The notes under the pieces were generated by a model. That model was not told the origin of the DNA, did no database searches, and saw nothing but the letters and a program-made list of their open reading frames with translations. From Seleniivibrio sp. (GTDB lineage: Bacteria; Chrysiogenota; Deferribacteres; Deferribacterales; Geovibrionaceae), in assembly GCF_021209385.1 (NCBI RefSeq), contig NZ_JAJOIL010000023.1:1-64000 (forward strand): a stretch of 64,000 nucleotides of DNA, given 5' to 3'. The translations under genes and the position numbers were made by a program. Positions 2,899 through 4,566 of the stretch are shown here, one piece after another; within the stretch, counting starts at the first letter, position 1; each line of letters starts with the position of its first letter.

Positions 2899-4566
2899 AT
2901 GTCATATGTCGCGCTTGCCCGCAAATTAAGACCTCAAAATTTTGACGAGCTTTCAGGACAGGGATTCGTTGTCACAACCCTGAAAAACTCCATTGAGATG
3001 GGACGCATCGTCCACGCATACCTTTTCACAGGTCCCCGCGGCGTGGGCAAAACCAGTGCGGCGCGTATTCTGGCAAAGGCAGTCAACTGCCTTGACCCCG
3101 ACGGATGCAACCCCTGCAACAAATGTGAAAACTGCCTTGAGATAACAAGCGGGACATCAATGGACGTTGCGGAGATAGACGGCGCATCAAACCGCGGTAT
3201 CGACGAGATAAGGGATTTGCGTGAAGCAGTCCGTTTCCTCCCCATGAAGTGCCGATATAAAGTATATATAATAGATGAAGTGCATATGCTCACAGAACAC
3301 GCGTTCAATGCACTTCTGAAAACCCTTGAAGAACCGCCGGAATACGTCATCTTCATTCTGGCGACAACCGACCCCCACCGTATTCCTGCGACAATAATTT
3401 CCCGCTGCCAGAAATACGATTTCAATAAAATACCTTACGACATAATGTACAAGAGCCTCGCAAACGCTCTGGACAAGGAAGCAATAACATACGAACCCGA
3501 TGCTCTCAGCCTTGTAGTGCGCAATTCCGACGGATGTATGCGCGATTCGCTCTCTCTTCTTGACCAGATAATAGCCTTCACAGGCGGCTCTCTGGACGAG
3601 CAGAACACGTCTTTCCTGCTGGGCTATTCAGATAAAAACATACTGAACAGACTGTTCGATGCGGTTATTAAAGAGAATACGCAGGATCTCCCGCAGATAT
3701 GCACGGAACTTACCGCGAAGGGCATCAACTACACTTTTGCGGCGGAAACTCTCATTGAGCATACCCGCAACCTGATGATGCGCATAATCACAAAAAAAGA
3801 AAATCCGGAACTCACATCAAAAGAGAACGAGTTTTACGGCTCTCTGGCACAGACCACAAGCGAACAGCGCCTCTTCGCACTGTTTCAGGTCTTCCAGAAG
3901 CTTTTGAACGATATAAAGTTTTTCAGTTTCAGCCAGTACGTTTTCGAGTTCGGAATGTACAAGGCGGCGAGCATTTCGGCACTTATACCAACAACAGGTA
4001 TGGCTCCGACCGTGCCGCTGGGCAATGCGACGGCACCTGTGAACAACCAAGGAACGTCTGCTCCGCAGCCTATTATACAGAAACCGCAGGCGGACACATC
4101 CACACAGCCTGTTCTGTCGTCCACCGACATCCAGCTGCAAAACATAATGAACGCTCTGGACGACAACAAACAGCCGCTTATAGCATCCAACCTGAGCCAC
4201 GGATACATCATTCAGCAGACGAACGGCGTTCTCTCCATAGGCTTCAGCACCGACAAAAAGTTCCATTACGACTACATAGCCCGCAAGCAGAATCTGGACG
4301 TTCTGAATCAGGTGGTGCCAAAGGCGTTCCCGACCATTTCCGAAGTTTCGGTGATCCTCGAACAGGATTCCAAAAAAAAAAGCATAATTGAAAAAAAAGA
4401 GCATATCGAGACCATCCATGACATCCGTATAAAAAAAGAGGCGGAACAGGACAGCATAGTGAAGCTCCTTCTCAACGAGTTTGACGGTAAACTGCTGGAT
4501 ATTGACGTGTTACAGCGCCCCAGTTTCGACGCGGAAGAGGACGAAGAACACGAAAACGAAGACTGA
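2899..4566 (+). CDS. dnaX: DNA polymerase III subunits tau/gamma DnaX
   Basis: ATPase of the replicative clamp loader. Walker A GPRGVGKT lies at about residues 45-52, followed by the zinc site (CLDPDGCNPCNKCENC, about 64-79), Walker B DEVHML, the sensor SRC segment, clamp-loader domains II-III to about residue 370, a Pro/Gln/Thr-rich linker, and a tau-specific C-terminal domain ending in an acidic tail. At 555 residues it is within the usual range. Ten consecutive A bases at codons 492-495 are followed at once by stop codons in both shifted frames (TGA at 4389, TAA at 4385). Slippage there would yield a gamma-like form of about 495-497 residues. The ATG lacks a Shine-Dalgarno and may be leaderless. 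Confidence 0.95.
   Translation: MSYVALARKLRPQNFDELSGQGFVVTTLKNSIEMGRIVHAYLFTGPRGVGKTSAARILAKAVNCLDPDGCNPCNKCENCLEITSGTSMDVAEIDGASNRGIDEIRDLREAVRFLPMKCRYKVYIIDEVHMLTEHAFNALLKTLEEPPEYVIFILATTDPHRIPATIISRCQKYDFNKIPYDIMYKSLANALDKEAITYEPDALSLVVRNSDGCMRDSLSLLDQIIAFTGGSLDEQNTSFLLGYSDKNILNRLFDAVIKENTQDLPQICTELTAKGINYTFAAETLIEHTRNLMMRIITKKENPELTSKENEFYGSLAQTTSEQRLFALFQVFQKLLNDIKFFSFSQYVFEFGMYKAASISALIPTTGMAPTVPLGNATAPVNNQGTSAPQPIIQKPQADTSTQPVLSSTDIQLQNIMNALDDNKQPLIASNLSHGYIIQQTNGVLSIGFSTDKKFHYDYIARKQNLDVLNQVVPKAFPTISEVSVILEQDSKKKSIIEKKEHIETIHDIRIKKEAEQDSIVKLLLNEFDGKLLDIDVLQRPSFDAEEDEEHENED
4372..4381 (+). other. A10 slippery tract in dnaX
   Basis: In the zero frame this reads Ser-Lys-Lys-Lys-Ser. Gaining one A, or a -1 ribosomal shift, gives Lys-His-Asn-stop. 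Losing one A, or a +1 shift, gives Ala-stop. A second run of eight A follows at 4391-4398. The arrangement parallels the A9 slippage site of Thermus thermophilus dnaX, which is known to make gamma by transcriptional slippage. Confidence 0.75.

Follow-up and report, generated by a model that had tools for sequence, protein, structure and literature searches.

A conserved A10 tract in dnaX of a Seleniivibrio genome as a probable site of programmed slippage in Deferribacterales

The dnaX gene in the window (the whole 64,000-nucleotide stretch of DNA that was analysed, from a host close to Seleniivibrio woodruffii, order Deferribacterales) contained a run of ten A about seven-eighths along its length. 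We interpreted this run as a programmed slippage site, at which RNA polymerase would make mixed mRNAs for tau and for a gamma-like form, and put the probability of this interpretation at about 75%. Comparison with relatives, through the conservation of the tract and the reversal of its frames, supported the slippage that the preliminary description had proposed, and suggested that in Deferribacterales a single dnaX gene very probably yields both a short and a long clamp-loader protein. The features of the gene were as follows.

2899..4566, + strand: dnaX, clamp-loader subunit tau, 555 aa (ATG start, TGA stop; Pfam PF13177, PF22608 and PF12169)
4120..4362, + strand: folded core of tau domain V, aa 408-488 (AlphaFold2, pLDDT about 83-95)
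4372..4381, + strand: putative A10 slippage tract, codons 492-494 and base 1 of codon 495
4384..4563, + strand: tau-only tail, aa 496-555, absent from the short form (AlphaFold2, low to middling confidence)
4385..4387, + strand: TAA stop reached with one A fewer (495-aa product)
4389..4391, + strand: TGA stop reached with one A more (497-aa product)
4391..4398, + strand: A8 run, judged to lie outside the signal

The product carried the Pfam delta2/AAA, ATPase lid and gamma3 domains, and its nearest solved proteins were the E. coli tau/gamma structures (E 5e-80). Codons 492-495 read AAA AAA AAA AGC, and the ten A lay exactly where the preliminary description had placed them, at 0.885 of the gene length and after the domain V core. 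Tau was in the zero frame, and both non-zero frames stopped near the tract. Translation with one extra A gave KKKK-H-N-TGA, and with one A less KKKA-TAA. This confirmed the two stops described earlier (TGA after Lys-Lys-His-Asn and TAA after Ala), and the claim that both directions of slippage converge on 495-497 aa was correct (497 and 495 aa, respectively).

The A8 run, also noted before, was present nine bases past the A10. Its counterpart was A6 in L002 and A7 in L004. Because relatives did not keep it, the A8 run was rejected as a component of the dnaX signal.

The tract was widely conserved. A run of A9-A10 was found in 39 of the 43 dnaX 3' ends of Deferribacterales and in 14 of 16 genera. 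The exceptions were L039, L040, L041 and the fragment L049, and the two genera without a tract were that of L039 and that of L040 and L041. Loss of the tract in close relatives had been named earlier as the observation that would speak against slippage. The result ran the opposite way: all four congeneric relatives and all 12 genomes of the family kept A9-A10, as did most of the order.

In nearly all of these genes the tract lay at 0.87-0.91 of dnaX, and its alignment column was equal within two. On the other hand, its context varied, with the codon phase reading KKK, EKK or LKKK and different residues following. The stops that the preliminary description had asked to be aligned were present at the same spacing in most genera. 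There translation stopped after one full codon when one A was removed and after three to five codons when one was added, and these stops were built from different nucleotides in different families.

Synonymous resampling was done with one genome per genus, and the per-genus probabilities were multiplied. Assuming independent genera, the tract had a joint probability of about 1e-8 and the stops one of 1e-10; genera of one order are only partly independent. A Fisher combination (0.12 for the tract and 0.009 for the stops) was set aside because it treats fixed event probabilities as uniform p-values. A9 runs in two other genes of the genome, cheR and a PAS-GGDEF gene, served as controls; in relatives within the genus these shrank to 4-6 A, and one of them recurred in a more distant CheR.

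Some dnaX genes contained two or three A9 runs within 30-70 bases (L018 at codons 476, 492 and 499; L024-L029 at codons 495-513), which might reflect duplication or movement of the tract.

In six relatives the frames were reversed. The dnaX of L008 (Denitrovibrio BM704) had nine A, and its DNA frame ended KKKA-stop; that of L027 ended KKKALI-stop. Four g15 genomes (L034-L037) had an A10 in the linker near codon 400 with a stop directly after. The DNA frame in all six stops at the tract and the tau tail is read only with one added A. Full-length tau therefore seemed, from these sequences, to depend on slippage. The reversed frames argued for real slippage in the order, since they are otherwise hard to explain.

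Sequencing error was rejected as the source of the reversed g15 genes, as four genomes share the arrangement, and it was unlikely for L027, which comes from a single-contig genome (G023). For L008 it is a possible cause, this gene being from a single MAG (G011, of which L055 is also a record).

Runs of this length were rare in the host. Whole-genome pattern counts gave only nine A/T runs of at least 10 in 2.9 Mb. Sense runs of at least 10 occurred in three convincing genes, namely the A10 of dnaX, an A12 in a cheW-cheZ fusion and a T10 in a signal peptide, and dnaX and the fusion held the only two sense-strand runs of A10 or longer well inside genes. The T10 (L111 1501-1510; G000:C20:7813-7822) occupied codons of the signal peptide (MKKSTFFFIALIL) in a gene at least 500 codons long, and possibly forms a phase-variable or slippage-prone start.

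Shorter runs were counted in a 447-kb sample of the genome. A7 runs in genes were as frequent as expected (97 vs 98), A8 runs were depleted threefold (11 vs 34.6 expected) and A9 runs tenfold (1 vs 9.75 expected). Runs of A10 or longer numbered one, that of dnaX, vs 5.35 expected. The genome thus avoids runs of A8 and longer inside genes. Such avoidance marks runs as slippery in the species concerned, by the argument of PMC1088944, and would therefore mark them as slippery here. Taken by itself, this genome made a mild case: under its codon usage an A10 was expected for this dnaX peptide with P = 0.15, and the two close stops behind it had P = 0.13. With the former value so high, it is the conservation that carries the case.

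To see what the short form would lose, residues 346-555 were modelled with AlphaFold2 from six own or related sequences, with confident results only in the core. The tract was placed in a loop between the domain V core, an alpha/beta fold, and a long helix (496-517), which was followed by a helix at 519-527 and a strand at 534-539. The top Foldseek matches included domain V of E. coli tau (5fkv, 5fku and 2aya); the best of them, to the C-terminal domain of E. coli tau, was weak (E 0.018) and served as supporting evidence only. PF20964 (DnaX_C) was found at aa 444-499, below the cut-off. Deletion of the last 25 residues of E. coli tau abolishes alpha binding, and a tau I618X strain could not be made (PMC11470591). 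From the model, the tail missing from the short form would correspond to this alpha-binding part. The 495-497 aa form should then load clamps and not hold polymerase, because the last helices, which bind alpha in E. coli tau, would be gone.

The other gene with a long sense-strand A run lay outside the window.

G000:C30:54212-56257 (L190 1501-3549): CheW-linker-CheZ fusion
C30:55148-55159: A12 run in the cheW-cheZ linker, with stops in both shifted frames and a further A9 in the linker

The CheW domain (PF01584) was found with E 7e-38. The CheZ-like domain (PF04344) was below the cut-off in the protein itself and just below it in a relative. This part contained FQDITEQ, which we take to resemble the CheZ active-site motif.

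A run of at least nine A (A9-A14) separated the CheW and CheZ domains in 40 of the 41 Deferribacterales loci read, and stops usually followed within a few codons in both shifted frames. In nine loci (L196-L198, L219, L221 and L224-L227) the CheW frame itself stopped at the tract. The CheZ part was on the same contig in eight of these, six times in the frame with one A more and in L197 and L226 in that with one A fewer; L198 had a second frame break inside the CheZ part. In those eight genomes slippage would be the only route to the CheZ part. Joint resampling over 11 genera, treated as independent although they are only partly so, gave a probability of 4e-7 for the cheW-cheZ tract and one of 3e-8 for its stops.

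We interpreted the cheW-cheZ tract as a candidate for programmed slippage that would yield CheW alone and CheW-CheZ. Our literature search found no report of a slippage tract in cheW-cheZ, and this tract is the more novel lead of the two. We lean towards the view that slippage on A runs is a standing device of the Deferribacterales for obtaining two proteins from a single gene, with dnaX and cheW-cheZ as at least two unrelated instances.

For dnaX, the proposed mechanism is as follows. RNA polymerase would slip on the ten A and produce mRNAs with 10, 11, 9 or other numbers of A. Those with A10 or A10+3n would be translated into tau (555 aa), whereas translation of the remaining ones would end within a few codons in either of the other frames and yield the gamma-like form of 495-497 aa. 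This form would retain the ATPase and collar domains and the domain V core, and lack the last helices. One gene could in this way, like that of Thermus, supply clamp loaders carrying a smaller number of polymerase arms.

A short form might also arise from unchanged mRNA, by ribosomal -1 frameshifting or sliding on A_AAA_AAA. This heptamer is in frame within the dnaX tract and is slippery for ribosomes too. Ribosomes are reported to slide on lysine-coding A runs (PMC4363877), and in E. coli cassettes the frameshift yield climbs with the A run, from 10% for A7 to 40% for A9 and 63% for A11 (PMC3711429). However, no hairpin was detected downstream of the tract, where folding was no better than that of shuffles (z 0.19 and -0.10), and a frameshift of the E. 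coli type with a stem-loop was rejected on this ground. Inspection by eye found no conserved Shine-Dalgarno-like element either: AGGA was present upstream in some Seleniivibrio only and absent from other genera. Both lysine tRNAs were found in the host genome.

RNA-polymerase slippage appeared likelier from these sequence features, because the stem-loop and a conserved Shine-Dalgarno-like element are missing, the host has both lysine tRNAs, the A run keeps a length of nine or ten although seven would serve the ribosome, and stops are kept in both frames. In addition, the cheW-cheZ loci show both shift directions, which PMC3711429 gives as a mark of transcriptional slippage. We therefore regard the ribosomal route as unlikely.

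Replication slippage (phase variation) would make the DNA differ between cells, with the short form coming from a mutant fraction. A runs this long do mutate readily, and relatives vary between A9 and A10 and in frame. Against this, dnaX belongs to the core replication genes and E. coli requires its tau tail (the I618X result of PMC11470591), the reversed arrangement is fixed in four g15 genomes, and phase variation would not require paired stops at a fixed spacing. This explanation is considerably less probable than the ribosomal one. Least credible of all is a neutral origin, in which a lysine-rich loop fell into AAA codons with stops nearby by chance, as the single-genome values (P = 0.15 and 0.13) would allow; the tract is kept over the order while phase, residues and surrounding codons change, the genome avoids such runs, the control-gene A9 runs are lost, and frames are reversed.

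In T. thermophilus, transcriptional slippage in dnaX has been proven; what the short product is for was long a matter of debate in E. coli. If the slippage reading is right, the short clamp-loader protein is under selection, because a distant phylum has the site at the corresponding position in the structure and has retained it despite reversals of the frame, and in some species tau itself would depend on slippage. Between closely related species the tract can stand in opposite frames, in which case the two products would swap roles, and this makes the order a natural test bed for dnaX slippage. The cheW-cheZ tract, if true, would extend programmed slippage to chemotaxis signalling.

The E. 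coli dnaX -1 frameshift is similar in that one gene gives tau and gamma through a premature stop in the shifted frame. Unlike E. coli, the window gene has no A_AAA_AAG heptamer in the zero frame, and both stimulators, the stem-loop and the Shine-Dalgarno-like element, are missing. In E. coli, gamma stops short of domain V, at residue 431 (PMC11470591), whereas the cut in the window gene would fall inside this domain. In three loci of the same phylum and another class (L046, L047 and L048, of G050, G048 and G049), an A9 at 0.71-0.73 of dnaX preceded domain V, within the linker, and stops lay close by (in two of the three, in one frame within two codons). This A9 was placed as in E. coli rather than as in Thermus.

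Two-ORF dnaX genes, which need recoding for tau, are described by Antonov et al. 2013 (PMC3711429), whose dnaX set includes nine genes with A10. The arrangement in L008, L027 and L034-L037 is exactly of that type, whereas the window gene keeps tau in the zero frame. A survey found further A9-A10 tracts in dnaX of other phyla (L153, L154, L156, L159, L175 and L183). The zero frame of L156 (G057, GC 38%) ended just past its A9 at about 390 codons, and its long open frame was reached with one added A, as in the two-ORF type.

The closest likeness was to T. thermophilus, whose transcriptional slippage (Larsen et al. 2000) is described in PMC1088944, PMC5009743 and PMC4320859. Its stops lie two and about sixteen codons past the tract (PMC4320859), and two lysine tRNAs are noted for it (PMC5009743). 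The window gene shares the sense-strand A9/A10 about seven-eighths through dnaX, just past the final strand of the domain V core, a zero frame that encodes tau, stops in each of the shifted frames, and a host with two lysine tRNAs. It differs in phylum, in having A10 vs the A9 of Thermus, and in a host genome of 46% GC. Heterogeneous mRNA and a 1:1 product ratio are proven in Thermus only.

We compared the window gene with a genus (GC 69%, genomes of 2.1-2.4 Mb) that we infer, on the strength of its GC, genome size and dnaX, to be Thermus-like. All 15 of its dnaX loci read had A9/A10, mostly after the same domain V strand, and the window tract aligned beside theirs. One of them, L258, fitted the published stop positions of T. 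thermophilus. Two loci differed from their congeners in frame arrangement, with tau out of frame: L262 (G106) had A10 and reached the tail with one A fewer, and L271 (G114) had A9 and reached it with one A more. The dnaX frames of L265-L270 were 700-800 codons long vs 515 in L168, and their match to the query broke in the linker, which indicated long linker insertions.

The sequence comparison thus suggests that the window dnaX joins the Thermus kind of programmed slippage, and that what it adds is conservation across an order, together with reversals of the frame.
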